This document shows, piece by piece, positions 5,812 through 23,104 of a stretch of 23,104 nucleotides of DNA. Both the position numbers and the translations under genes were made by a program. The notes under the pieces are model-generated. The model saw only the letters and a program-made list of their open reading frames with translations. It was not told where the DNA came from and ran no database searches. This stretch comes from a virus. Position 1 is the first letter of the stretch, and every line of letters begins with the position of its first letter. The DNA is taken from the IMG/VR virus record IMGVR_UViG_3300033141_001188, positions 1-23,104 of that record. One strand, 5' to 3'.

Positions 5812-6478
5812 CACCATCATTGAGTTTTTTTAACAAAGAAGATAGTGGACTATTAAGATTATCCATATTTTGAATAATACAATGCCCTCCTATTTTTCCC
5901 TCCATATGTTTAAGATTATATTGTTGGAATTGTGGTAATCCCATCTTGTTATAACCCCCATTATACATCTCCACAAAATCTGTATAAACCTCATTAAAAT
6001 CAAGTTTGTTTTCTTCACAATATTTATATATTTCCTTTTCTATCATCACATTTAGTCCATAAATATTTAAAGCCCACAATTTACCAGCTTCTGTATTCTC
6101 TGGTTTAATCAACACTTTAGTTTCACAACCCTTAAAATCAAACTCTTCGGCCATTCTTTTAGCCCCTCTACCAGCAAATAGTTTTGTAAACAATAATATA
6201 CTTTCATATAAATCAGGGTGTTTTCCTGTTATGGGAGAATGACAAGCCTCTAATGTTCTGGAGGTTCCAACAGGAACTGTTGAATGAATAACTACATATC
6301 TAGCATTATGTTCTTTCTTATATTTTTTAACTTGTGATATAAATCTATCTGAATAAGGAAAACATATGTGAATAGCACCATATTCGCCCTCAAATTTCTC
6401 TATATCTCTAATATCACACTTCAAAATCTGCGAGATGGCAGTTCCTATCTGCCCACTTCCTATAACTAAATGATTCAT
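5804..6478 (-). CDS. Short nucleotide-sugar dehydrogenase-like protein (224 aa)
   Basis: The N-terminus has a Rossmann NAD-binding turn (VIGSGQIGTAI, residues 5-15). It is followed by VVIHSTVPVGTS (62-73), the strand typical of UDP-sugar 6-dehydrogenases, then SPITGKHPDL, a central helix (KLWALNIYGLNVMIEKEI), and GGHC with Cys200, in the position of the catalytic-cysteine motif of the UDP-ManNAc dehydrogenase branch. Family members usually have about 400 residues and a C-terminal nucleotide-sugar domain; this protein stops soon after the cysteine. It may therefore be a minimal oxidoreductase with a different substrate, or no longer a four-electron dehydrogenase. It overlaps the aminotransferase gene by ATGA (6475-6478), placing it last in the sugar operon. 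Confidence 0.68.
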   Translation of the reverse strand: MNHLVIGSGQIGTAISQILKCDIRDIEKFEGEYGAIHICFPYSDRFISQVKKYKKEHNARYVVIHSTVPVGTSRTLEACHSPITGKHPDLYESILLFTKLFAGRGAKRMAEEFDFKGCETKVLIKPENTEAGKLWALNIYGLNVMIEKEIYKYCEENKLDFNEVYTDFVEMYNGGYNKMGLPQFQQYNLKHMEGKIGGHCIIQNMDNLNSPLSSLLKKLNDGVV

Positions 6479-7521
6479 AATACGTCTTTTAATGTTTTAC
6501 AGATGGTTTTAACGTCTTCTTCTGTCATATCTGTATAAGTTGGTAAATAAAGACCCTGATAAGCCCATCTAAAAGCATTTAAATGATTATAAGGTCTATT
6601 ATATGTTGGTTGTTGGCTCATTGGTTTAAAGAAAACTCTTGAATCAACACCCTTTTTCTTTAATTCTTGTCTAATAAGGTTCTGTTTATATCCTACATTA
6701 ATATCATACATCCACAAGACATCTCTAGGAGGCATTTTAAGATATTCAGGGATATTTTCATCATACCATTTCTCTATTAACTTCCTTTTTCTTATTATTT
6801 CATCAAACCTCTCCACTTGAGCTAATGCTACTGCACCTTGTAGAGCTGTCATTCTGAAATTATAACCTAAATCTGGGTGTAAAAATGTATGGTCTTCATT
6901 AAAACACATAGCTCCATACCATTTCATTAATTCAGCATACCTCTTGTTGTTTGTTAGACATATTCCACCCTCTCCTGATGTGATTATCTTGTTGGCGAAA
7001 AGTGAATAACAGGCAATATCCCCTCTAACTTTTGTTCCGTGTGCCTCTGCTAAATCTTCTATAATCTTAATCTTTTTTGTTCTCCTTTTATTTACCTGCG
7101 TTATAGCCCTAATTACTGCATCACTATACATTCTTCCATAAATTGAAACTGGTATTATTGCTTTTGTCTTTATTGTGATAGCCTTTCGTATTTTCTTTGG
7201 ATTAATATTTAAGGTATCATCACAATCAACAAAAACAGGTGTTGCACCCACATAAGTTACTGCCCACGCAGTTGCAACCATAGTAAATTCAGGAACGATA
7301 ACCTCATCTCCCTCCTGAACTCCTATAGCCCTTAATGCTAGGACAAGAGCAGTAGTTCCACTTGAACAACCTACTCCATATTCCATTTTATTCTTTTTAG
7401 CCCAAGCCTTTTCAAATCTCTCTACAAAGGGTCCTTTAGAAGAAATCCAATTAGTGTCTAGGGCTTCATTGACATATTTTTTCTCCAAGTCTGTCAAACT
7501 CGGCATACTTACTGGTATCAT
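6475..7521 (-). CDS. DegT/DnrJ/EryC1/StrS-family sugar aminotransferase, probably GDP-perosamine synthase-like
   Basis: A complete, normal-length (348 aa) PLP-dependent sugar aminotransferase. Visible landmarks are SSGTTALVLAL (53-63, phosphate-binding turn), EFTMVATAWAV (78-88), VDCDDTLNI, the EDLAEAHG motif with Asp156 placed to contact the PLP ring nitrogen, and Lys178 in NKIITSGEGG as the Schiff-base lysine. The C-terminal part (GYKQNLIRQELKKKGV ... FFKPMSQQPTY) is also typical. Known relatives transfer an amino group from glutamate to C4 or C3 of a keto-sugar nucleotide. The dehydratase gene directly upstream overlaps it by ATGA (7518-7521). A GDP-4-keto-6-deoxymannose substrate giving GDP-perosamine is thus the best guess. 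Exact regiochemistry is inference. Confidence 0.88.
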   Translation of the reverse strand: MIPVSMPSLTDLEKKYVNEALDTNWISSKGPFVERFEKAWAKKNKMEYGVGCSSGTTALVLALRAIGVQEGDEVIVPEFTMVATAWAVTYVGATPVFVDCDDTLNINPKKIRKAITIKTKAIIPVSIYGRMYSDAVIRAITQVNKRRTKKIKIIEDLAEAHGTKVRGDIACYSLFANKIITSGEGGICLTNNKRYAELMKWYGAMCFNEDHTFLHPDLGYNFRMTALQGAVALAQVERFDEIIRKRKLIEKWYDENIPEYLKMPPRDVLWMYDINVGYKQNLIRQELKKKGVDSRVFFKPMSQQPTYNRPYNHLNAFRWAYQGLYLPTYTDMTEEDVKTICKTLKDVL

Positions 7522-8489
7522 TTTGTTGTATCGTTAATAACCATTAATTTCACAAGAGATTCAAAGCCGATTTTAGGCGACCACCCTAATACAGCTTTGG
7601 CTCTTGAACTATCCCCCAATAGGGTTTGAACCTCATTAGGTCTTACAAATTCTAAATCTGTTCTAATATTATCTTGGAAGTTAAGGTCTGTTTTATATAT
7701 TTGATTAGTTATTTCAAAAGCCTTATCTATAAAATCTCTTACAGAGTATTTTTCTCCTGTTGCAATTACTAAATCTTCTGGTTTATCTTGTTGTAACATT
7801 AACCACATAGCCTCAACATAATCTTTAGCGTGTCCCCAATCCCTTTCTGCTGTTAGATTACCTAATACAATATGTTTAATCTTTCCATCTAGTATATCCC
7901 TTATACCTTTAGTAATCTTTCTAGTTACAAAGTTTTCTCCTCTCCTTTCTGATTCGTGGTTAAATAGTATTCCATTAACTACAAACATATCGTAAGACTC
8001 TCTGTAAATTCTTGTTAAGTTATATGAATATAGTTTAGCTACACCATAAGGACTTTTAGGGCAGAATTTAGATTTTTCATTATAAGGACATTCATCTTCA
8101 TTACCAGAAAACATTTCTGAAGTAGAGGCTTGATATATCCTTGTTTTTAGCCCTAATATCCTTACAGCTTCCAATAGATTAAGGGTTCCTAAAGCATCAA
8201 CTTGTCCTGTGTAGATAGGAGTGTCAAAACTAACAGCAACGTGTGATTGGGCAGCCAAATTATATATCTCATCAGGTTTCACTTTTTTTATAATTCTAAG
8301 TAGTGAAGCAATGTCTGTCATATCTCCATAGTGGAGTTTGTCCTCTAAATCTAGATGGTCTATACGACCTCTATTAAATGTTGAAGCTCTGCGAACTATT
8401 CCGTGAACCTCATAACCCTTTTCTATTAATAACTCTGCAAGATAACTTCCATCTTGTCCTGTTATTCCTGTTATAAGTGCTTTTTTCAT
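7518..8489 (-). CDS. gmd: GDP-mannose 4,6-dehydratase
   Basis: An extended short-chain dehydrogenase/reductase that converts GDP-mannose to GDP-4-keto-6-deoxymannose in the cytoplasm. The family hallmarks are clear: GITGQDGSYLAELL (8-21, NADP-binding glycine motif), IVRRAS (31-36), YNLAAQSHV (76-84), ASTSEMF (121-127, with Thr123 and Glu125), the catalytic YGVAK (Tyr148, Lys152), and NHESERRGENFVTRKI (177-192). At 323 residues it is slightly shorter than many cellular forms but covers the whole fold. It feeds the aminotransferase encoded next, which overlaps by ATGA. The start follows the preceding stop by TAATATG. Arg codons are nearly all AGA or AGG (16 of 18), unlike the capsid gene. Confidence 0.95.
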   Translation of the reverse strand: MKKALITGITGQDGSYLAELLIEKGYEVHGIVRRASTFNRGRIDHLDLEDKLHYGDMTDIASLLRIIKKVKPDEIYNLAAQSHVAVSFDTPIYTGQVDALGTLNLLEAVRILGLKTRIYQASTSEMFSGNEDECPYNEKSKFCPKSPYGVAKLYSYNLTRIYRESYDMFVVNGILFNHESERRGENFVTRKITKGIRDILDGKIKHIVLGNLTAERDWGHAKDYVEAMWLMLQQDKPEDLVIATGEKYSVRDFIDKAFEITNQIYKTDLNFQDNIRTDLEFVRPNEVQTLLGDSSRAKAVLGWSPKIGFESLVKLMVINDTTK

Positions 8490-8490
8490 A

Positions 8491-8853
8491 TTATTTTTTA
8501 TTTAACTCCAACCACAACTTCGCAACACTCTCCTCTGGGGTTTTACCATACATAACTACACTAACACTATCTATTTCAAGTGGGTCTATTGAAGCATTCG
8601 CCACCCATTTGTGTAGATATTTAGATAATGAGTCAAACTCCTCCCCACAAGCATCTATTAGTTCTGATAGGGTTGGTTTCTTATACCATTCTCCACTCAT
8701 ATTATTGGCTCCTTCACTCAATACTAATGTTTCTGCCCACTGTATTGGTATTCCCATTCTAGGGTGTCCAATCTTGGAGTAATACTCATTACCTATAATA
8801 AGTTTCTGTGGAAACCCAGCCTCTTTTAATTCTTTTGCTAATTTGTAGTTCAT
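8491..8853 (-). CDS. Unknown 120-aa protein inside the carbohydrate block
   Basis: I do not recognise an enzyme here. The protein starts with a helix (LAKELKEAGFP), continues through GIPIQWAETLVLSEGAN and WYKKPTLSELIDACGEEF, and ends GKTPEESVAKLWLELNKK. The order KELKEAGFPQ, then PTLSELIxACG, then TPEExVAxLWL is one I associate with small conserved proteins of unknown function in phage and metagenomic sequence. It is joined to the glycosyltransferase upstream by an ATGA overlap (8850-8853) and to gmd downstream by TAATATG, so it is co-translated with sugar genes. That does not prove a sugar role. No membrane segment or metal site is visible. Confidence 0.75.
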   Translation of the reverse strand: MNYKLAKELKEAGFPQKLIIGNEYYSKIGHPRMGIPIQWAETLVLSEGANNMSGEWYKKPTLSELIDACGEEFDSLSKYLHKWVANASIDPLEIDSVSVVMYGKTPEESVAKLWLELNKK

Positions 8854-9770
8854 AATAATTTTAGATATTTAGCTTTTAACTTCTTCCAAGAATTATCTTC
8901 TCCAAACTTCTTACCTTTCCTTGATGTTATTATTATATCACTTTTATAGACTTCTTCTATTTTTTCGGCAATATCTTCTGGGGAAAACTCTGCATAATCA
9001 AATTCAGTTGATAAGGTTTCCTTTCTGTAACTTTTAACTGGTATTAAATATTCTTTTGGTAGCCACTCATTCATTGGAAACCTATCTCCACACATTACAA
9101 CCATTCCTGAAGCATAAGCCTCCTGAATTGGTAAAGACAAACCATTAAAGGCTTCGGGGAATATAAATACATCTCCCTCTGACCATATATCATCAAATTG
9201 ACCCACTCTAACCTCAATTCTTTCGTCATCTACATCATTCATAGGAACTTGCGACCTTATTATCAACTTAACAGGGCTTTTTACCCACTTAAATGCCTCT
9301 ATAAGCTCCTTAGTCCCATTACGCCCTCCCAAACCACCATTTCCAGCATTATGCACAAAGACGAGTGCTTTTTGCCTCTCTCTCCATTTAATATGTTTAG
9401 GTATTGGAACGTTTATTCGTATTCCTTTTGGATAATACTGTTGGTCTAAATCAGAGGGGGTTAAGATAACATCTGGGAAGTATATTAGGGGATAATTGGT
9501 GCATTCATACATAGGCATTAATACTGTCTTAACCTTTTTAGCTCTTGCCTTTAATATAATAGTCCAATCAAAAGGAGTTTCAAAGAATAGGATAGTATCA
9601 CAATCTAATAAGTCCTCCATCTTATCTACCCTATTGTTATACCAATCATAATGATTTTTCCTAGAAGAATGGGGATATACAAAAACCTTATCTATAACTC
9701 CATTGTCATAGAAGTCTTTGGCTAGATAACCTAGTCCCTGATTAGTTGCTAATACTACTGCTCCAATCAT
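8850..9770 (-). CDS. Glycosyltransferase, GT-B fold (GT4-like), 306 aa
   Basis: The N-terminal half shows alternating strands and helices of a Rossmann-like domain (GAVVLATNQGLGYLAKDFY). The C-terminal half begins with ALVFVHNAGNGGLGGRNGT (about residues 135-153), the nucleotide-sugar phosphate-binding region seen in GT4 enzymes. It also carries DVFIFPEAFNGLSLPIQEA, the acidic E-x-F-G-L-x-x-x-E-A type motif that contacts the donor sugar. No transmembrane segment or signal peptide is visible, so it should act in the cytoplasm. The start overlaps the end of the preceding glycosyltransferase gene by 29 bases. Donor and acceptor cannot be read from the sequence; the neighbouring gmd and aminotransferase suggest a GDP-activated 6-deoxy sugar. 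Confidence 0.85.
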   Translation of the reverse strand: MIGAVVLATNQGLGYLAKDFYDNGVIDKVFVYPHSSRKNHYDWYNNRVDKMEDLLDCDTILFFETPFDWTIILKARAKKVKTVLMPMYECTNYPLIYFPDVILTPSDLDQQYYPKGIRINVPIPKHIKWRERQKALVFVHNAGNGGLGGRNGTKELIEAFKWVKSPVKLIIRSQVPMNDVDDERIEVRVGQFDDIWSEGDVFIFPEAFNGLSLPIQEAYASGMVVMCGDRFPMNEWLPKEYLIPVKSYRKETLSTEFDYAEFSPEDIAEKIEEVYKSDIIITSRKGKKFGEDNSWKKLKAKYLKLL

Positions 9771-10731
9771 TTAAGTATTGTTTTAACGCTTCTTCCTTTT
9801 CTCCTGTCCACTCTGTTAATTTCTTCCAATGTCTATAACCCTGCTGACCTATCTTTTGGTTAAACTCTGGGTCTTTTAATTTCTCTACAATTTCCTTTAT
9901 CTCCTCAACGGCTTTAGGCATTTCGTTTTCCATATCCTCTATAATGATTCTTGGGTCTTTCTTATCCTGTTTAAAGACACTATCTCCCCAAGTCATACAG
10001 GTATCTCCATTAATATATAAATCTTCCATTTTCATTCTTGCCGCCAATAGAGAGGGAACTACTACTGGTGTTGCAGTTTCAAATGCTTCATATAAAGCCC
10101 AACCTGGGCAATCACTAGATTTAATATGAATAAAGCAATTAGCATTAGTAAGTAATTCTTCAACTTGTGTATTTTGTATCTTTCCTGCTGGGGAACGATT
10201 ATCTCCATAAATACGAAGCCCCGTTGCTTCAATTATGGGATTAATCCAATCTTTATAACCCCAATTATAAGCATTGTGTAATAATCCTATTGGAGAGTCC
10301 TTACCCATCTCTGTTTTAGGAGTGTAATCATCAACTGGAGGCGACCAAACGTGGAAAGCATTTTTAATCCAAAAGTTATTGGTAATAGTCGGGAAGTATA
10401 AACCACAATCCTCATATCCATCACAACCCCCATTAATAATATACAAAGCACCCCTTATCTCAGGATATATCTTTAACATTGATTCTAAATCCCTTTGTTT
10501 TAAATCAAAGAAGATGTCAGCACCCTCTACTGTATCTATTGGTTTAATTTTTGCCATATTATATCCCATTGATTTTAATAAATCAGAAGTTACTCCTCCT
10601 TTATAACCTTTTTCCTGATATTTTCTTATTGCTTCATCTGTAAGCATAAAGACCTCATATCCTATTTTTTCTAACATAAAGGCTAGACTCTCTGCTGGTT
10701 TTGTATCTATTCCTGTTATTACTGCTTTCAT
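9742..10731 (-). CDS. Putative GT-B glycosyltransferase (329 aa)
   Basis: The protein begins with a Rossmann-type strand-loop-helix (MKAVITGIDTKPAESLAFML). It has a middle region with aromatic residues (FHVWSPPVDDYTP; GLLHNAYNWGYKDW). The C-terminal ELLTNANCFIHIKSSDCPG plus WALYEAFETATPVVVPS matches the donor-binding end of GT4-type enzymes, where an acidic residue pair spaced along a helix holds the sugar nucleotide. It overlaps the GT-A gene before it by ATGA (10728-10731) and the next glycosyltransferase by 29 bases, so all three are probably made together. The N-terminal domain is more divergent than in well-known families, so substrate and exact CAZy family are unclear. No membrane segment is visible. 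Confidence 0.78.
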   Translation of the reverse strand: MKAVITGIDTKPAESLAFMLEKIGYEVFMLTDEAIRKYQEKGYKGGVTSDLLKSMGYNMAKIKPIDTVEGADIFFDLKQRDLESMLKIYPEIRGALYIINGGCDGYEDCGLYFPTITNNFWIKNAFHVWSPPVDDYTPKTEMGKDSPIGLLHNAYNWGYKDWINPIIEATGLRIYGDNRSPAGKIQNTQVEELLTNANCFIHIKSSDCPGWALYEAFETATPVVVPSLLAARMKMEDLYINGDTCMTWGDSVFKQDKKDPRIIIEDMENEMPKAVEEIKEIVEKLKDPEFNQKIGQQGYRHWKKLTEWTGEKEEALKQYLNDWSSSISN

Positions 10732-11411
10732 TTTTTTGTTAAGTTAAATTGTTTATAATCTGCTAATTCTACCTCTATTTCTGGGTTAGTGATATAGTCC
10801 CAAAAATCATAAGGTTGTTTACCTACTGCTCTTGTGTAATTATCGTTCCATCGTTTCTTATGGTGTTCTCTTAATTCTTCTGTGGAATATCCATAATGAA
10901 CTATTACTGATTTACCATAATGTCTTTTATATGCTTTATCTACCTTACTTTTTACAAAATGAAACGGAGATACTATTATTTTATCTCTCCACCTCCAGTC
11001 TTCTTGTGTATAATAAGCTCTTTCCCTTAACCAAGCTGTAAACATAGGAAATTGAATTACCTTTGCCCCCTTTTCTTCTGCATCTTTAAAGTCTTGTTGT
11101 AGGTTTGCTGATATATCCCACCTCTCATCTATATCCCAATGAAATGCCCACTTATAACCTAATTCCTTGAGAGCATAGAAAGGGTTTTGTCTAAATGATT
11201 CTAAGTATGGTTCGGTTTCTTCTTTAATCCATACTGTATTTTTAAAGTCCTTTATCTTTTGTTTGGTTTTGTCTGAACAATGGTCTAGTTGCCAAGCAAT
11301 ATCAACATCTATCATTTCTGCATTAACAAGAAAATCATCTAACCAGATGGTATCTTCTTCACAGAACATTACATAAGCTCCTATACGATTATTATTGGTT
11401 TGTCTCTCCAT
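10728..11411 (-). CDS. Putative GT-A-type glycosyltransferase (227 aa)
   Basis: The protein opens with IGAYVMFCEEDTIWLDDFL (10-28), a strand and loop like those of GT2-related enzymes that sense donor nucleotide. It carries FHWDIDERWD near residues 90-99, with Asp93 and Asp95 forming the DxD metal-binding motif. Later segments (VIQFPMFTAWLRERAYY, then HYGKSVIVHYGY) fit the acceptor half of a small GT-A domain. The first ATG lies inside the end of the preceding ParB-methyltransferase gene (31-base overlap). A later in-frame ATG at codon 15 would cut into the first strand, so I keep the first. Substrate unknown. Two GT-B genes follow it directly. Confidence 0.75.
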   Translation of the reverse strand: MERQTNNNRIGAYVMFCEEDTIWLDDFLVNAEMIDVDIAWQLDHCSDKTKQKIKDFKNTVWIKEETEPYLESFRQNPFYALKELGYKWAFHWDIDERWDISANLQQDFKDAEEKGAKVIQFPMFTAWLRERAYYTQEDWRWRDKIIVSPFHFVKSKVDKAYKRHYGKSVIVHYGYSTEELREHHKKRWNDNYTRAVGKQPYDFWDYITNPEIEVELADYKQFNLTKK

Positions 11412-12424
11412 TCTATTTCTTTAAAAATTTTAAATCCACACTCTTTTAAAAGAGCTTTTAAGTCATCGGGGTGGGAAGTATAATATATATCCCTCTCCTT
11501 TTCTTTCCTTAAATTACATTGGAAAATTATCCTTTTACCCTTAAACTTTTCCAATACTGCTTTCTGTTTAGCTTTCGGTATATGGTAGAGGACGTTCAAC
11601 ATTAAAATAGTGTCTGCTGTTTTTGTGGTTTCCTCTATAAGTTCTTCGTGAAATTCAATAGGTAAATCTTTCTTATCACAATATTCAAAGATTAATTTAT
11701 TCAACCAAGCATTATGAGTATAGTTTAAATCTATTCCTGTAACCTTATATCCTTGCCGAGCTAACTGTATTCCAATGTAGCCCTCATTACAACCTAAATC
11801 TAAAATAGTCTCCCCTTTAATGAAAGGTATAAACAAATCCCATCTACCAGCATTTTCCGTATAAACCTCCCCTCCATCTGGGATATTCCACATTCCATTA
11901 GGATATTCAAACTGGTAATACTCTTTACCTGATGACATCCACCTTGCTTTAATCTTTCTTTCTATAAAGTCATCATCTATATCTTTCCAATGAAACTTAT
12001 GTAAGACTGCCCTTACTTTCTTAATACCGAGATACATAGCTATTTTAGTTCTGAATGAACCATCTAGTCTTTCTCCCGTTATCTCACAATGAACTGGCTC
12101 TAATATTCCATTTTCTCTTATATTGTAAAGAAGTTTAGGAAGCCTATCAATCCTAGATTTAACATCTTCCCCTTTATATCCATAAATATGATAATACTCT
12201 GATTTAGTATAGTCATAGTTTATATTTCCATCTAAACCTCTCAACATATCTATAAATTCATCTGGGGAGTGTTCATAATATTTAGCTGTCCCCTCCTCAC
12301 AGACAATACATTTATGGTCAGGATTCTTCTGAAAAGATAAGGGGTTAATCTCTATTTCTTCCCCCTCTTGTTCCATAAGCAAATCCCTTTCGCTTTTTCT
12401 AGTTGTATGGTTACCAAAAAACAT
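11381..12424 (-). CDS. ParB/Srx-like domain fused to a class I methyltransferase (347 aa)
   Basis: Two domains are visible. Residues about 85-145 read NIRENGILEPVHCEITGERLDG... then FRTKIAMYLGIKKVRAVL. This matches the ParB/Srx fold core, where a family member states a parameter, stores it as a DG-x-x-R segment and follows with an LG-x-x-x-V helix-strand. Residues about 200-345 form a SAM-dependent methyltransferase, with motif I LDLGCNEGYIGIQLA (208-222), acidic motif II VTGIDLNYTH, and ILMLNVLYHI as motif IV. A Cys pair (CIVC, 39-42) precedes both domains. The gene is 8 bases downstream of another methyltransferase gene and overlaps a glycosyltransferase gene. Methylation of a sugar or of modified DNA is possible. 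The fusion itself is the notable point. Confidence 0.82.
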   Translation of the reverse strand: MFFGNHTTRKSERDLLMEQEGEEIEINPLSFQKNPDHKCIVCEEGTAKYYEHSPDEFIDMLRGLDGNINYDYTKSEYYHIYGYKGEDVKSRIDRLPKLLYNIRENGILEPVHCEITGERLDGSFRTKIAMYLGIKKVRAVLHKFHWKDIDDDFIERKIKARWMSSGKEYYQFEYPNGMWNIPDGGEVYTENAGRWDLFIPFIKGETILDLGCNEGYIGIQLARQGYKVTGIDLNYTHNAWLNKLIFEYCDKKDLPIEFHEELIEETTKTADTILMLNVLYHIPKAKQKAVLEKFKGKRIIFQCNLRKEKERDIYYTSHPDDLKALLKECGFKIFKEIEWRDKPIIIV

Positions 12425-12432
12425 AATGTTAT

Positions 12433-12933
12433 TTAATTTAATTTGTTAAATATTGATGGGTCGGTATATTCTAATAATAACACCTCTTTTGCAACTCGCA
12501 GTAATTCCTTTTCCATTTTGTCCCATACAGCACCTCCTAATTGACCTACTACCATATTCTTTATTGATACACATATAGCGATATCAAATTCATTATCTTT
12601 GAAAGGTAGTTTTTTTAAATCCCCTATAATAAACTCTTTATCAGGATATAATTCTTTTGCCTTTTCTATAAAATCAGGAGAGAAGTCAATACCCACATAA
12701 TTAGTAAACCATTCAGAACTTCTACCATAACCACAACCAGCGTCTAATACTTTCTTATCTCTATATTGTCCTAGTATCTTTTTATGTTCTTCGGCGATTC
12801 TCTCCCATTCATCTTGATTTACTAAATATACAGACTCGTGTTTTAAATCGTCATTTTCGTGTTTAGCATCTCTTTCAAAAGACTTATCTACTCTATATTT
12901 CCAGTAACTTATTTTTTCTATTGGTTGTCTCAT
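12433..12933 (-). CDS. Class I SAM-dependent methyltransferase (166 aa)
   Basis: A compact Rossmann methyltransferase. Motif I is KVLDAGCGYGRSSEWF (61-76), the following acidic strand is VGIDFSPDFIEKA (80-92), and the post-II region reads GDLKKLPFKDNEFDIAICVS (105-124), the usual order for SAM-binding enzymes of the UbiE/COQ5 type. At 166 residues it lacks most of the C-terminal substrate-binding additions and ends soon after the core. Substrate cannot be told. Its setting between a sulfotransferase-like gene and a ParB-methyltransferase gene, within a sugar block, favours O-methylation of a sugar, but nucleic acid or small-molecule targets remain open. The start is two bases after the upstream stop (TAATTATG). 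Confidence 0.88.
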   Translation of the reverse strand: MRQPIEKISYWKYRVDKSFERDAKHENDDLKHESVYLVNQDEWERIAEEHKKILGQYRDKKVLDAGCGYGRSSEWFTNYVGIDFSPDFIEKAKELYPDKEFIIGDLKKLPFKDNEFDIAICVSIKNMVVGQLGGAVWDKMEKELLRVAKEVLLLEYTDPSIFNKLN

Positions 12934-12935
12934 AA

Positions 12936-13424
12936 TTAAAAATGTTTATATCTTGGTTTAATAAATTCTATTGCCTCGTCTAATCTCTTAATGTCAAACA
13001 TAGCCAACACTTCGTGGGGTTTATTTATTAAGTCTTCAAAGGGGATTTCTATTGGTTTTAACTTCCTTGCCTCCTTGTTAAACTTTATTATACTTCTCCT
13101 TGCCTTTTCAATATCTCCATCTCCCTTTAATTGAACTGCTATTGATTTAGATTGTGAATCCTCATCTCTTGTCATTAATATTATAGTTTCATCTCCCCTA
13201 GTTCTGATAGGTAATCCTGTTCTCTTATGATTTCCCTTAGTTCTTATCTCCCCTTTAGTTTCTAAATAACCACAAACACCCTCTCCAGCACTCATACAGG
13301 CTATTCTTTTAGGTGGTCTATGGCCAGGGAATCTCCAACCACCCTTAACAAGAGCACCAGCTAATGCAGAAGTTCCACATCTACCTCTACCTAATATTAA
13401 GATTGGTTGTCTAATTCTTGGCAT
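12936..13424 (-). CDS. Miniature sulfotransferase-like P-loop protein (162 aa)
   Basis: The N-terminus reads PILILGRGRCGTSALAGAL, matching the 5'-phosphosulfate-binding loop of PAPS-dependent sulfotransferases (residues 12-19), which differs from a kinase Walker A by ending in TS. A second hallmark is MTRDEDSQSKS: Arg86 and Ser94 are spaced R-x7-S, as in the 3'-phosphate-binding site. Near the C-terminus IEIPFEDLINKPHEVL fits the closing strand and helix of that fold. At 162 residues it is much shorter than the usual 250-300, having lost part of the acceptor-binding region. It overlaps the two-domain glycosyltransferase gene by 28 bases. A sulfated glycan product is inferred; loss of activity is possible. 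Confidence 0.75.
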   Translation of the reverse strand: MPRIRQPILILGRGRCGTSALAGALVKGGWRFPGHRPPKRIACMSAGEGVCGYLETKGEIRTKGNHKRTGLPIRTRGDETIILMTRDEDSQSKSIAVQLKGDGDIEKARRSIIKFNKEARKLKPIEIPFEDLINKPHEVLAMFDIKRLDEAIEFIKPRYKHF

Positions 13425-15106
13425 AGTTTTTTACATTTGTGCTTCATTAAATAATTCTTTTTGACCCATTCAAGATTTTTATTAATAATTTCCTCCCTCT
13501 CCTTAGGATTTTGTTTATAGTGTCCTATTTTATCCTTTAGGTCTTGATAGTTCCCTCTTTCATAGGTTACTAAATAAGGATATTCCTTTTCTATACCCTC
13601 AACATAAACGTGGATAAGGAAACCTCCTCTCCCTAAAGTTTCAACCACCCTATTTGACCAATAGTTAGGGCTGTAAACACTATCTCCAACTACCACCTTT
13701 GTCTTACTATATAATTGATTAAGTTTAGGTCCTCTAACTTCATCAGGGTCATCTTTACCAAACCAATGGAAGTCAAAGTCCTTATCAACCTTTCTTAATA
13801 TATCATTCCTTTCGGAGTTATGAACATTGAAAGTTCCAACGAATATAACATCATATTCCTTTTTAGCTTCTATTTTATAACAATCTAGTTTATGTATTCC
13901 CTGTCTTATACAAGTGTGGTCTATATCCACAGACTTCCATTCTTCTTTGTGTCCTCCATCTGAGGTAAATACCTTATCTGCCCTAAACATATTTCCATTT
14001 TTAATTATATATTCCCTTTTATAACCCCAATATAAATCCCACACCCAACATACTGTCTTAATATTATTAATATTACAGTAATCAATAATCTTAGATGCCT
14101 GTGGTGTTTGTAATTTAGCCCACAAGACTACATCAGGCTCAAACATTTCTAATTGTTGTATTATCTTTGGGTCTCTTTCGGTTATTCTTCCTACATCGTG
14201 TCCTAATGACTCAAAGGCTGTATATTTAGGCATTTCTTCCACTAATTTGAATCCCATTCCTTTGTATTTTCTTTTTAATTGCATACTAATAAATTTTTCG
14301 GGAACTGGGAATGTTAATCCGTCCTTTTCTCTAACAACTAAAAATTCCCTTTTATTCTTCTTCTGCATTGGTAATTCCTTATTAAGTGGTTGGTTTAAAC
14401 TATTAATGTGATTATCTAATTCAAATTGTATCTTCTCTTGATTAAAAGGCTCACAAGTGTTTAAACTTAAAGCCCTATAATAACTTGGGTGTCTATAAAC
14501 TTGATTAGGGTCATATTTCTTATATCTCCTTATCTTTCTCCTCCTATCAACCTCTTTCTTTAAACCATAATGTTTAAGCATAAAAGGGGCGTGGAGGTTT
14601 AAATGATAAGCCCATTTGGGAGCTAAACCACAATGTAAAGGTCTATTCTCAAACTTAAAGAAACCCTCCCCAAGTTTATCTTTCCAACCCCAAGACCAAA
14701 ACCTAACATTCCAAAAAGACCAATCAGACCGATAACCATCATTCCACAAGTTTGCAATATAAACATACCAAGCCTGTCCTTTCCTTGCCCACTCCTCAAG
14801 TTTATCCCTTGTAGCGACCAATTCTTCGTCCATATCAAGACAAACTGTTGCGTCTGGGTTTAATAGGGCAACATTATTCTTTAAAAAGTCCTCTTTCATT
14901 ATATGTTGGTTCTTACCCCACTCCCTATCATCTTCCACTAAATGAAAGCCAAACTCCTTAATTAGGGTTCTCTCCTTATCAGTAATATTATTACCTAATA
15001 TGATTGTCTCATCACATAATTCTTTGAAGGATTTAAAAGCAGTATTTTTCATATACCTACCAGCTTCCCCTCCTCCACAAATTCCGTAACCTACAATTTT
15101 TAACAT
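13397..15106 (-). CDS. Two-domain glycosyltransferase: GT2-like N-terminus, CgeB-like GT-B C-terminus (569 aa)
   Basis: Residues 1-230 resemble a GT-A domain without a membrane anchor. The first strand is MLKIVGYGICGGGEAGRYM, a donor-side segment is CDETIILGNN, and VCLDMDEELV (88-97) carries the DxD-type acidic motif. HLNLHAPFMLKHYG (168-181) is typical of the closing part of such domains. After a basic linker (about 235-260), residues 270-565 form a GT-B glycosyltransferase. DVIFVGTFNVHNSERNDIL (419-437) and NRVVETLGRGGFLIH (485-499) match the CgeB-like C-terminal domain. One polypeptide may thus add two sugars in sequence. It is the first gene of the carbohydrate block and overlaps both neighbours (7 and 28 bases). 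Confidence 0.8.
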   Translation of the reverse strand: MLKIVGYGICGGGEAGRYMKNTAFKSFKELCDETIILGNNITDKERTLIKEFGFHLVEDDREWGKNQHIMKEDFLKNNVALLNPDATVCLDMDEELVATRDKLEEWARKGQAWYVYIANLWNDGYRSDWSFWNVRFWSWGWKDKLGEGFFKFENRPLHCGLAPKWAYHLNLHAPFMLKHYGLKKEVDRRRKIRRYKKYDPNQVYRHPSYYRALSLNTCEPFNQEKIQFELDNHINSLNQPLNKELPMQKKNKREFLVVREKDGLTFPVPEKFISMQLKRKYKGMGFKLVEEMPKYTAFESLGHDVGRITERDPKIIQQLEMFEPDVVLWAKLQTPQASKIIDYCNINNIKTVCWVWDLYWGYKREYIIKNGNMFRADKVFTSDGGHKEEWKSVDIDHTCIRQGIHKLDCYKIEAKKEYDVIFVGTFNVHNSERNDILRKVDKDFDFHWFGKDDPDEVRGPKLNQLYSKTKVVVGDSVYSPNYWSNRVVETLGRGGFLIHVYVEGIEKEYPYLVTYERGNYQDLKDKIGHYKQNPKEREEIINKNLEWVKKNYLMKHKCKKLCQELDNQS

Positions 15107-15426
15107 AATCCGTTATCTTTATGTGAGTGGCATTTATGGCAAAGAGCTTCCCAATCGTTTAGGTCTCTCTTATATTCGCCCGAAATGTTTGCCCACTCAA
15201 TAATTCTCCTTCCCTTTCCGTCCCATATTTTGCCACACATATTACATACAGTTGGTGTTTCCTTGTTGCGTTCAACCCACATATGTAATGCACGATATTT
15301 TACGTTATCTCCCTTCCACATTCCGTGAGTTTCTCCTTTTCGGTCTTTTCTTTCGTTATATCTACCAGTCCAATAACTTAAACCCTTAATAAATCTTCCT
15401 TTTTTATCTCTTATTACAGAGTGCAT
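15100..15426 (-). CDS. HNH-type zinc-binding protein (putative endonuclease), 108 aa
   Basis: Two Cys pairs are placed as in a treble-clef HNH fold: CNMC (61-64) and CHKC followed by His100 (96-100). Between them lies EWANISGEYKRDLNDWEALC, with the Asn seen in related HNH-like phage proteins. The usual double His at the catalytic strand is not obvious (EWANISG instead), so nuclease activity is uncertain. The first 40 residues (IRDKKGRFIKG... THGMWKGD) are basic and resemble the NUMOD-type DNA-binding leaders of homing endonucleases. The gene sits exactly where head genes end and sugar genes start, overlapping both neighbours. That place fits a mobile gene or a remnant of one. Confidence 0.75.
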   Translation of the reverse strand: MHSVIRDKKGRFIKGLSYWTGRYNERKDRKGETHGMWKGDNVKYRALHMWVERNKETPTVCNMCGKIWDGKGRRIIEWANISGEYKRDLNDWEALCHKCHSHKDNGLC

Positions 15427-16511: not shown

Positions 16512-16535
16512 ATAAGTTATGAATTATAAACTTAT
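16512..16535 (-). repeat. Inverted repeat at the end of the capsid gene
   Basis: ATAAGTT and AACTTAT (16512-16518 and 16529-16535) form a perfect 7-bp inverted repeat with a 10-base loop. It includes the capsid stop codon (16532-16534) and lies 5 bases before the terminator stem. It may protect the 3' end of the transcript; it is AT-only apart from one G-C pair and thus weak. Confidence 0.4.
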
Positions 16536-17482
16536 GAAGTGATAAATGCGTTTGAAGCATTAATTACAACACCTCCATCAGCTCTAATTGCTGCAACTCC
16601 GTAACTCATATCGGCGATTGCCAATACTGCTAGGTTACGTAGTTGATATTCTGTCTGCACTCTAATCTTTAGAGGTGTAGGACCGAACTCAGTCATAATA
16701 GAACCTCCGAATGGTCGAACTGCCCACATAAATGCGTTTGGTGTAAGCAATAGGTTTCGGTAAGTCTGCAAAGCATTAACTAGGTTAGTTGATGTATACA
16801 ATGGTATTGCAAACAACTGACCTTTGTATGCGTGTTGCATACCTGATTGGTTAGGTAGGTTTCCTGTCTTCTGTAGTGGGAATTGTGAAGTATCAAATGT
16901 ATAATACTTTGAAATTCCGTGAATTTGTGTCCAGTAAACTTCTGGGTGGAAGAAAAACGCCATATCTTCTACTCTAAAGTCTGCTGATTCCAAGGTTGAG
17001 ATTGCGACACGAATGTCTGCATCTGAAACTGCGTTTGATGTATCTCCAACTCCTGTAGTTGAAAGTGATGACCATAGACCAGCGATTGCTGCCTCAATAG
17101 TATTCATAAGTAGTCCTTGGGCTTGTCGGGCATAAGCCTCGTTCAAGTCATAGAATCGTGCTACTTGTGAAAGTGTATTGTCTCCAAGTAACCAAGCCAC
17201 ATAAGAGTGAGTTGTTACTGTTAGAGAATCATCAACTTGTGCTGCAACTGATGGAGTAATTTCTGTTCCCTCAGTTGATTGTGTTGATACTGATAATTCA
17301 TTTGTGTAAAAGTCTGGGACGTGAACAATGTCTCCTCCCGCTTCTACAAATCTTGATAGGTCTACACAAAAATCTGTCAATACTGCGTGAGGGAAATTAA
17401 CCTCATTGATTATTGGACTCCAAATTTCTGGAATTGTAGCTGCCAAGTTTGCTGCTGTGTAAGCTTGTCCTGTAACTGCCAT
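16532..17482 (-). CDS. Major capsid protein (HK97-fold type), 316 aa
   Basis: It has the length, composition and position of a phage coat protein, directly after an acidic scaffold gene in the order terminase, portal, scaffold, capsid. The start reads MAVTGQAYTAANLAATIPEIW, then GGDIVHVPDFYTNE (49-62), where a strand of the E-loop region would fall. MAFFFHPEVYWTQIHG and NLLLTPNAFMWAVRPFGG lie in the region of the axial domain, and RVQTEYQLRNLAVLAIADMSYGVAAIRADG ends the fold. The pattern fits HK97-fold coats of short-tailed phages; finer family is unsure. Six of ten Arg codons are CGA or CGT, unlike the sugar genes. A GAGGG lies 12 bases before the start, the only hint of a Shine-Dalgarno in the window. 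Confidence 0.9.
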   Translation of the reverse strand: MAVTGQAYTAANLAATIPEIWSPIINEVNFPHAVLTDFCVDLSRFVEAGGDIVHVPDFYTNELSVSTQSTEGTEITPSVAAQVDDSLTVTTHSYVAWLLGDNTLSQVARFYDLNEAYARQAQGLLMNTIEAAIAGLWSSLSTTGVGDTSNAVSDADIRVAISTLESADFRVEDMAFFFHPEVYWTQIHGISKYYTFDTSQFPLQKTGNLPNQSGMQHAYKGQLFAIPLYTSTNLVNALQTYRNLLLTPNAFMWAVRPFGGSIMTEFGPTPLKIRVQTEYQLRNLAVLAIADMSYGVAAIRADGGVVINASNAFITS

Positions 17483-21783: not shown

Positions 21784-21789
21784 ATTATA
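21784..21789 (-). promoter_or_regulatory. TATAAT box before the small terminase gene
   Basis: A perfect TATAAT on the minus strand, 8 bases before the ATG at 21775, overlapping the stop codon of the preceding glycosyltransferase gene. It is preceded by TAG rather than a TGn extension. It may begin transcription of the packaging module. Confidence 0.35.
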
Positions 21790-22621
21790 CTACTTTCTTA
21801 ATCTTCATACCATAATTGTCTATTCCCTCTTTAATTTTTAGGTCTTTCCTTTTAATAAAAGTATTCTTTCTAAAGGGTCTATAATCTACTGAATGTTGCC
21901 ATCTTCCCCACTTCCATTTTATCTCTACTATATCAGGGTGTTGTTGTTGGAGAGATTTAGCCATCATTAGTCTTCCGTCCATCTTTCTGTCTTGTTTGTA
22001 TAGTTGGTCTGTATTACCTCCTTTCATAGTCATTGTTGCGGTTTTATCACACATAAAAGCATTAAATAGTATTGTGCAATATCCATCTTTTAAAAACCTT
22101 ATAGATAGGTCAGTATCTTCGTTGTAGCGACCTCTCCAGCGATGTGGCATATCATTCTGTAATAATATACAACTATATATTCTAGTATTAGGGGTGAATG
22201 CCTTTTTATTCTTATCAACTACAAACATTTTATAGTTAAGACCCGCCATAGCTATGTTTTCATATCTATCAGTAAAATCTTCTGCGGCCTTTAGGATTGT
22301 CCCATCTCCCACATAATATCTTCTTCCACCTATTAATCTCAAAAAGGATTGAATATTATCGTCCATTATCCAATGTCTCTTATGTCCCCCTGTTCTTGAG
22401 TGTTCCCATACCCAATTTCTAGCAGGGATACTACCCTTACCTAAATTACTAAAGGGAAGTTGTAATATCTTTTCTTTATCTATTACTTTGGCATAATCAT
22501 CATATTCCTGTGGTTCAATAACTATTCTATAAGGAACATTCATCTTTTCCAAGGCTTTTGAGGTCTGGCGACTCTCCCATCTCCCTTTAGATATTATATA
22601 TATTGGGTATTTAGGATTCAT
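21785..22621 (-). CDS. TET-associated-type glycosyltransferase (TAGT-like), 278 aa
   Basis: The layout matches the TAGT family, described from phage DNA base-modification loci. It runs IYIISKGRWESRQTSKAL (7-24), YRIVIEPQEYDDYA, GSIPARNWVWEHSR, then RHWIMDDNIQSF with the acidic DDN motif for metal and donor. It is followed by RYNEDTDLSIRFLKDGYCT with a second acidic cluster, an MTMKGGNT loop, and a final HPDIVEIKWKWGRWQHSV then DYRPF. Known members are thought to glycosylate oxidised or hydroxymethylated pyrimidines; no TET/JBP oxygenase is in this window. It overlaps the ParB-like gene by 11 bases, so the two form one unit ahead of the packaging genes. Confidence 0.85.
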   Translation of the reverse strand: MNPKYPIYIISKGRWESRQTSKALEKMNVPYRIVIEPQEYDDYAKVIDKEKILQLPFSNLGKGSIPARNWVWEHSRTGGHKRHWIMDDNIQSFLRLIGGRRYYVGDGTILKAAEDFTDRYENIAMAGLNYKMFVVDKNKKAFTPNTRIYSCILLQNDMPHRWRGRYNEDTDLSIRFLKDGYCTILFNAFMCDKTATMTMKGGNTDQLYKQDRKMDGRLMMAKSLQQQHPDIVEIKWKWGRWQHSVDYRPFRKNTFIKRKDLKIKEGIDNYGMKIKKVV

Positions 22622-23104
22622 TTTCTACTATAAAATCTTTATTTTTTTGTTGTTCTCTAAAAGGGAACCAAGCAAATTTTGTTTTGTCTGTTAATTTAAG
22701 TTCGGTTATCTCTGCGAATTTTATAACATCTTCTGCGGTTTCAAAGTGAATTACTATTGATTGAACTGCGCCCTCTACCCTCTGGGCATTTACTTCGGGC
22801 ATACCCTCCCATTCTGCCTCAACATCTATCTCTGATGGATTAATATTATAATTTAAATCAAGTCCATAGTTCTCAAGTTCTTCCATATCATAATCGGCAC
22901 CAAGTATTTCATAATCCCAAACACCATAACCCTGATTATCAACCACAACAAACATCTTCATCTCCTCCTTAGTCCAACTTTCATCAAACATAATGACTGG
23001 TATTTCTTTCCAACCTAAATCCAAACAAGCTCTAAACCTCATATTTCCTCCCATAATCACACTATCTTGGTCTATAACAACGGGTCTAATTCCCATCATT
23101 TTGG
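22611..23104 (-). CDS. ParB-like (ParB/Srx-fold) protein, N-terminus beyond window
   Basis: The visible 3' part has RPVVIDQDSVIMGGNMRFRA (5-24) and LDLGWKEIPVIMFDESW, the ParB/Srx core with its GGNxRxRA motif, followed by VVVDNQGYGVWDYEIL, typical of phage ParB-like proteins. The last third has IVIHFETAEDVIKFAEI and FAWFPFREQQ, as in that family. The frame is open through the window edge (a Lys codon precedes the first ATG at 23099), and the core normally has about 30-50 residues before this point, so the true start is outside. Phage ParB-like proteins have been reported as nucleases or modification partners. Its overlap with the glycosyltransferase gene suggests a shared DNA-related role. 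Confidence 0.85.
   Translation of the reverse strand, partial: KMMGIRPVVIDQDSVIMGGNMRFRACLDLGWKEIPVIMFDESWTKEEMKMFVVVDNQGYGVWDYEILGADYDMEELENYGLDLNYNINPSEIDVEAEWEGMPEVNAQRVEGAVQSIVIHFETAEDVIKFAEITELKLTDKTKFAWFPFREQQKNKDFIVENES

Follow-up and report, generated by a model that had tools for sequence, protein, structure and literature searches.

Phage proteins that join a ParB-CTPase fold to a Methyltransf_23 domain have already been reported (Kaljevic et al. 2025, PMC12704722). ParB-fold domains are versatile NTP-binding modules, and the known phage fusions to Methyltransf_23 and N6_N4 methyltransferases are presumed to be DNA enzymes (PMC12704722). The Box II motif of the fold is GxxR, whose arginine is required for nucleotide binding, and one fusion of a ParB-fold protein with a SAM methyltransferase binds ATP (PMC12704722). 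One ParB-annotated protein, SerK, is an ADP-dependent kinase that acts on free serine (PMC5120207). On the glycan side, WbdD of E. coli O9a phosphorylates the terminal mannose of the O-antigen and then methylates the phosphate, the methylation requiring Y16, H132, H133 and R203 (PMC3482155).

Here we describe a protein in which a ParB/Srx-like domain precedes a class I SAM methyltransferase (MTase), encoded among glycan genes in a virus record of 23,104 bases, hereafter the window. The features discussed below are collected in Table 1.

Table 1. Coordinates of the fusion gene, its parts and its neighbours in the window.
Feature	Position	Strand	Remarks
DegT/DnrJ/EryC1 sugar aminotransferase	6475..7521	minus	PF01041 1e-83
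GDP-mannose 4,6-dehydratase family	7518..8489	minus	PF16363 1e-128
Glycosyltransferase GTc	8850..9770	minus	conserved in all four phages
Glycosyltransferase group 1-like	9742..10731	minus	PF00534 E=0.006
Glycosyltransferase-like gene	10728..11411	minus	weak Nucleotid_trans; relative in G511 prophage 28-31%
ParB/Srx-like domain + class I SAM MTase fusion protein	11381..12424	minus	347 aa, single ORF
Class I SAM MTase domain, residues ~190-347	11384..11857	minus	Pfam PF13489 4e-9; WbdD fold 3e-8, profile 3e-10
ParB/Srx-like domain, residues ~20-168, core 91-142	11921..12367	minus	AF2 secondary structure and profile searches; edges inferred
Box II-like motif D121-G-S-F-R125 (GxxR)	12050..12064	minus	D, G, S, R invariant in four phages
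Second small SAM MTase (MT2), cassette marker	12433..12933	minus	Methyltransf_11 1e-14; 28 loci
Sulfotransferase-like gene (weak)	12936..13424	minus	PF13469 E=0.04
Glycosyltransferases GTa + GTb, joined in window	13397..15106	minus	two genes in relatives
Major head protein, upstream flank of cassette	16532..17482	minus	phrog_267 4e-4; relatives 37-45%
TAGT-family glycosyltransferase adjoining second ParB	21785..22621	minus	PF20691 2e-47
Second, separate ParB-like gene	22611..23104	minus	phrog_620 1e-12; PF02195 1.4e-5

The fusion gene in four diverged phages

The fusion gene reads on the minus strand, the plus strand at the same place being full of stops. The original prediction, which gave no strand, had proposed a ParB/Srx domain and a SAM MTase in one frame at exactly these coordinates, and its residue numbers are correct (D121-G122-S123-F124-R125, YLGIKKVRAVL at 131-141 and motif I, LDLGCNEGYIGIQLA, at 208-222). 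The same gene is found in IMGVR 3300033153_002940, a near-identical contig of 38.7 kb that reaches beyond the window on either side. Looking for the same fusion in viral and genome sequences, a search that had been suggested for phage databases along with the prediction, we found it in three diverged phages, the orthologues being 41-51% identical to the window protein and all bearing both domains. A degenerate DNA pattern (LDGxFR...A..LG) retrieved IMGVR 3300037310_000135 (L014; 51% identical across the full protein), scanning with the MTase alignment gave IMGVR 3300033149_001069 (L076; 42-43%, cut by the contig end), and a genome search with the N-terminal profile retrieved a gene of the Patescibacteria genome G511 (L122:13067-14176; 41%), whose phylum rests on that of the search centre, a Candidatus Sungiibacteriota genome. 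Its occurrence in another, near-identical contig as well as in three diverged phages shows that it is no assembly artefact: the fusion is real and is kept by four diverged phages.

Further members were found neither in 1,974 genomes (repeats included) from six phyla sampled for convenience nor in 50,697 phage records searched by tblastn. DNA-pattern scans of genome contigs returned 58 stretches, none of which was confirmed as a family member, and the 57 loci with the DGxFR pattern in such contigs were unrelated proteins or chance frames.

The G511 contig carries a phage integrase (Pfam) and, further along, host-type genes recognised by inspection, namely methionyl-tRNA formyltransferase, oligoribonuclease, peptide deformylase and endolytic transglycosylase; Pfam checks on this contig cover only the integrase, the phage's own deformylase and GroEL. 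Since an integrase is followed by host-type genes, this fusion gene probably lies in a prophage of a Patescibacteria chromosome, the contig start truncating the prophage on its left. At L122:2008-6967 (G511:C5), this likely prophage encodes GroEL and a peptide deformylase, with a small GroES-like gene before GroEL by inspection.

The ParB/Srx-like half

Taken by itself, the ParB part of the window protein lies below every single-sequence threshold: its best PHROG ParB match has E=0.04, and a Pfam scan reported no PF02195 match. The best member in this respect is one of the orthologues, in which PF02195 is found at E=0.0076 with 16.7 bits, below the gathering score of 26.3. As that score is not reached, we place the domain in the ParB/Srx fold superfamily but outside the Pfam family proper. 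Searching the PDB with the N-terminal profile returned ParB proteins, sulfiredoxin and Spo0J at weak E values (0.06-2), together with one unrelated match (1.3) and pentatricopeptide matches that we discarded as repeat artefacts of one helix; ParB/Srx proteins were the sole superfamily-coherent non-repeat matches. A Pfam scan of ten secondary genome matches of the same profile found PF02195 in nine. By hhalign, the N-terminal profile matched six ParB sequences (ParB_N) with a score of 59.8, compared to 10-12 for the three shuffles listed and 14.7 for the MTase half, and with a probability of 96.6% that is somewhat flattering because most of the six had been found by this very profile. The window's second ParB, which was chosen independently, gave a weaker profile match alone (E=0.002, probability 13.5%).

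Structure prediction was among the checks proposed with the original prediction for the ParB/Srx fold. An AlphaFold2 (AF2) model built on four sequences reached a pLDDT of 82.4 and a pTM of 0.84, and superseded a poor model from three sequences (pLDDT 57). The order of elements of the fold is present in this whole-protein model, where helix 95-105, strand 111-114, helix 123-132, strand 137-142 and helix 151-168 give a helix - strand - GxxR helix - strand - helix arrangement, the block pLDDT being 84-93 over residues 91-160 and the DGSFR motif opening helix 123-132. The refuting outcome named with the original prediction, a predicted structure devoid of a ParB/Srx fold, was therefore not observed in the whole-protein model. 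An insertion of ~55 residues (35-93) precedes the core helix. When the whole model was searched against a viral fold library, a 'ParB/Sulfiredoxin' phage protein appeared at rank 39 with a poor overall superposition.

Box II is present as G122-S-F-R125, with G, S and R invariant among the four orthologues, and alignment of the four sequences indicates that G85, D87 and R91 are invariant as well. The conservation of these residues and of D121 at ~40-50% identity suggests that a ligand site is preserved. Box III is not recognisable in the fusion protein, and a Pfam scan of the window protein found neither HTH_ParB nor the dimerisation domains of canonical ParB partition proteins. Together, the profile comparisons and the predicted structure support well that the N-terminal half is a ParB/Srx-type domain, which becomes clear once the orthologues are included.

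The methyltransferase half

The C-terminal half passes the Pfam cut-off for Methyltransf_23 (36.9 bits against 27), and its motif I includes LDLGCNEG. WbdD chains were the best matches both in a PDB profile search (3e-10, the next family being at 6e-6) and in a PDB fold search (2.9e-8). In the alignment, WbdD Y16 corresponds to Y170, H132 to Y280, H133 to the invariant H281 and R203 to K342. As a control, we compared two TIGR04290 MTases, which score alike with the phage profile (42 vs 46 bits) and align at the same YH and R-P positions. Since these controls match equally well, the shared residues do not single out a phosphate acceptor, and we rejected them as proof of one. On these alignments, a phosphate acceptor is possible but is not favoured over plain O-methylation. 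TIGR04290 is also the best NCBIfam model for this half (2e-11), at 43.6 bits against a cut-off of 300, and one TIGR04290 relative sits in a glycosyltransferase cluster. The MTase belongs to no DNA-MTase family. To our knowledge, the substrate specificity of a class I MTase cannot be read from its sequence.

A glycan cassette beside the head genes

Consistent with the glycan operon that had been predicted around the fusion gene, glycosyltransferases and sugar-nucleotide genes surround it, and the neighbouring gene at 10728-11411 overlaps its 3' end by 31 nt. In all four phages the fusion gene belongs to one syntenic cassette with GTa, GTb and GTc, which also holds, where the contig permits, the second MTase, an epimerase/dehydratase and the DegT aminotransferase, and which lies between or beside head and tail genes. 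We found ~20 further viral loci with the core of the cassette (GTa/GTb, MT2 and GTc) that are devoid of the fusion gene; several of them are near-duplicates, so the independent cassettes are fewer. In addition, the place of the fusion gene within the cassette varies between phages. Its absence from these related loci and its variable position make it look like an optional, accessory tailoring step. Among the identified cassette genes there is no polymerase, flippase or exporter, ABC exporters included.

Several other features of these loci were observed. MT2 marks a glycan cassette adjoining head genes in ~20 viral contigs (L078-L104). The 569-aa GTa-GTb 'fusion' of the window is due to a deletion of 61 nt that are present in the near-identical contig, in which the two genes are separate; a second length difference between these contigs, of 57 nt, falls at ~11030 of the window, within the gene at 10728-11411. 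An HNH-like gene (window 15100-15426) stands between the head genes and the cassette, and a 44% identical relative occupies the equivalent place in the G511 prophage. GTa of the L014 phage (L014:8139-9119) ends in a C2H2 zinc finger (PF00096 1e-5), and the tail region of this phage encodes a 633-aa protein with a long serine/proline (SPSSSVSPS) repeat (L014:18875-20776). Finally, L005:13891-16890 encodes a probable tail fibre of 999 aa, whose collagen-like GXX repeats lie close to the N-terminus.

A second ParB gene on the packaging side

The window phage was also predicted to use the ParB fold twice, with a second ParB-like gene beside a gene of the DNA-glycosylation type, and this holds: the family matches of both genes identify a ParB and its TAGT neighbour (Table 1). 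The second ParB is cut at its 5' end by the window and is complete in the longer contig (207 aa, L004:8727-9350). It lies near the terminase, in a packaging-side context unlike that of the fusion gene. In the other two long members, the G2 phage and the G511 prophage, we found relatives of neither TAGT nor the second ParB.

In a Bacteroidota genome (L135:8271-10251), the gene order is ParB - ParB/Methyltransf_23 - terminase-like, the terminase and portal of this locus being identified by inspection. The small ParB there shares 43% identity with the window's second ParB and adjoins a ParB_N-Methyltransf_23 protein of the kind previously reported in phages (PMC12704722). Between this packaging-side fusion and the window protein, only the ParB core is common. 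The ParB-MTase combination is thus found in two settings, on the packaging side and in a glycan cassette.

Proposed function and alternatives

Taking these observations together, we propose, with a probability of roughly 55%, that the protein is a glycan-tailoring MTase with a nucleotide-binding ParB/Srx domain, serving an optional step of a phage cassette. The C-terminal domain would use SAM to methylate a sugar, or a sugar-linked group, of a glycan built by the neighbouring glycosyltransferases and sugar-nucleotide enzymes; that its best PDB relative, WbdD, is a glycan MTase supports such a role. The ParB/Srx domain may bind a nucleotide or a nucleotide-linked substrate through GxxR (DGSFR), and may either gate or position the substrate for the MTase or carry out a prior phosphate step. 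The fusion may be the two-step enzyme that the original prediction suggested. The glycan would decorate the virion, which we infer to be the most likely target as the cassette is located in the head and tail region and holds no identified polymerase, flippase or exporter. This position could equally fit a glycan carried by tail fibres or by the host surface.

A prior phosphate step could go as far as in WbdD, the ParB/Srx domain acting as a kinase on a sugar hydroxyl and the MTase methylating the resulting phosphate, so that the glycan is terminated or capped; WbdD would then have been re-invented with another kinase fold. The rank of WbdD as the top solved relative by both profile and fold, the correspondence of its four residues and the precedent of SerK all point that way, but the TIGR04290 MTases match equally at the same positions and the domain order is reversed relative to WbdD, and we regard this as unlikely. 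The more specific proposal of a phage-encoded sugar kinase of ParB/Srx fold and phosphate MTase that caps virion glycans with methyl-phosphate, a WbdD analogue with a different kinase fold, appears quite unlikely to us. At the other extreme, the ParB half might have lost both catalysis and ligand binding and might oligomerise or position an ordinary sugar O-methyltransferase. The missing Box III would fit such a regulatory or scaffolding role, as would a published survey in which 17 of 28 purifiable ParB-fold proteins did not bind NTP (PMC12704722), but the seven invariant residues of the putative ligand site speak for its preservation, which leaves this role rather unlikely too.

The original prediction had also considered modified DNA as a substrate. 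The fusion protein could cooperate with the TAGT/ParB pair in hypermodifying phage DNA or nucleotides, as is presumed for other phage ParB-MTase fusions; the window phage does encode a TAGT glycosyltransferase, and a ParB-Methyltransf_23 fusion does occur beside terminase-like genes. However, in four of four phages our fusion gene accompanies glycan genes and not the packaging side, the G2 phage and the G511 prophage yielded no relative of TAGT or the second ParB, and the MTase falls outside the DNA-MTase families. The DNA reading is therefore weakened, and we consider it distinctly improbable. Less plausible still is a kinship with the MADS protein mad2, as an anti-defence or defence-like factor: PADLOC mad2 does match the MTase half at 2.5e-8, but only over the generic MTase part, and the gene sits within a glycan cassette.

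Comparison with known systems

With the fusions of Kaljevic et al., the window protein has in common the presence of the same two superfamilies in one phage protein and the GxxR motif. Since such ParB-Methyltransf_23 fusions have already been reported, and one was found here at a packaging locus, the novelty lies in the different setting, the glycan cassette. An example of the reported type (L114:331-1725) stands beside terminase-like genes and a second ParB, and aligns with the window family over 47 ParB residues only (hhalign 87%); the window family differs by a long insertion in its ParB half, by an MTase resembling WbdD and TIGR04290, and by the glycan cassette around it. The TIGR04290 MTases, for their part, are devoid of a ParB domain, and one example is found in a glycosyltransferase cluster.

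WbdD is a glycan enzyme with a second domain, and its MTase is the closest solved one by profile and by fold. In WbdD, however, a eukaryotic-type kinase and a coiled coil follow the MTase, whereas in the window protein the ParB/Srx domain precedes it and a Pfam scan found no kinase domain, eukaryotic-type or other. With SerK, it shares the use of a ParB-like protein as an enzyme rather than as a partition protein; no direct similarity was detected between the two, SerK has no MTase, and a kinase role for the window protein would be by analogy.

A family conserved within a phage glycan cassette would bring the ParB fold into sugar chemistry, and the fusion protein offers a compact, expressible target for studying nucleotide-coupled glycan methylation. 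Its member in a probable Patescibacteria prophage links this type of cassette to hosts whose phages are poorly known. If the protein did combine a sugar kinase with a phosphate MTase, it would be a ParB-fold enzyme acting on glycans, including in a phage of a Patescibacteria host, and would stand beside WbdD with the ParB/Srx fold in place of the eukaryotic-type kinase.
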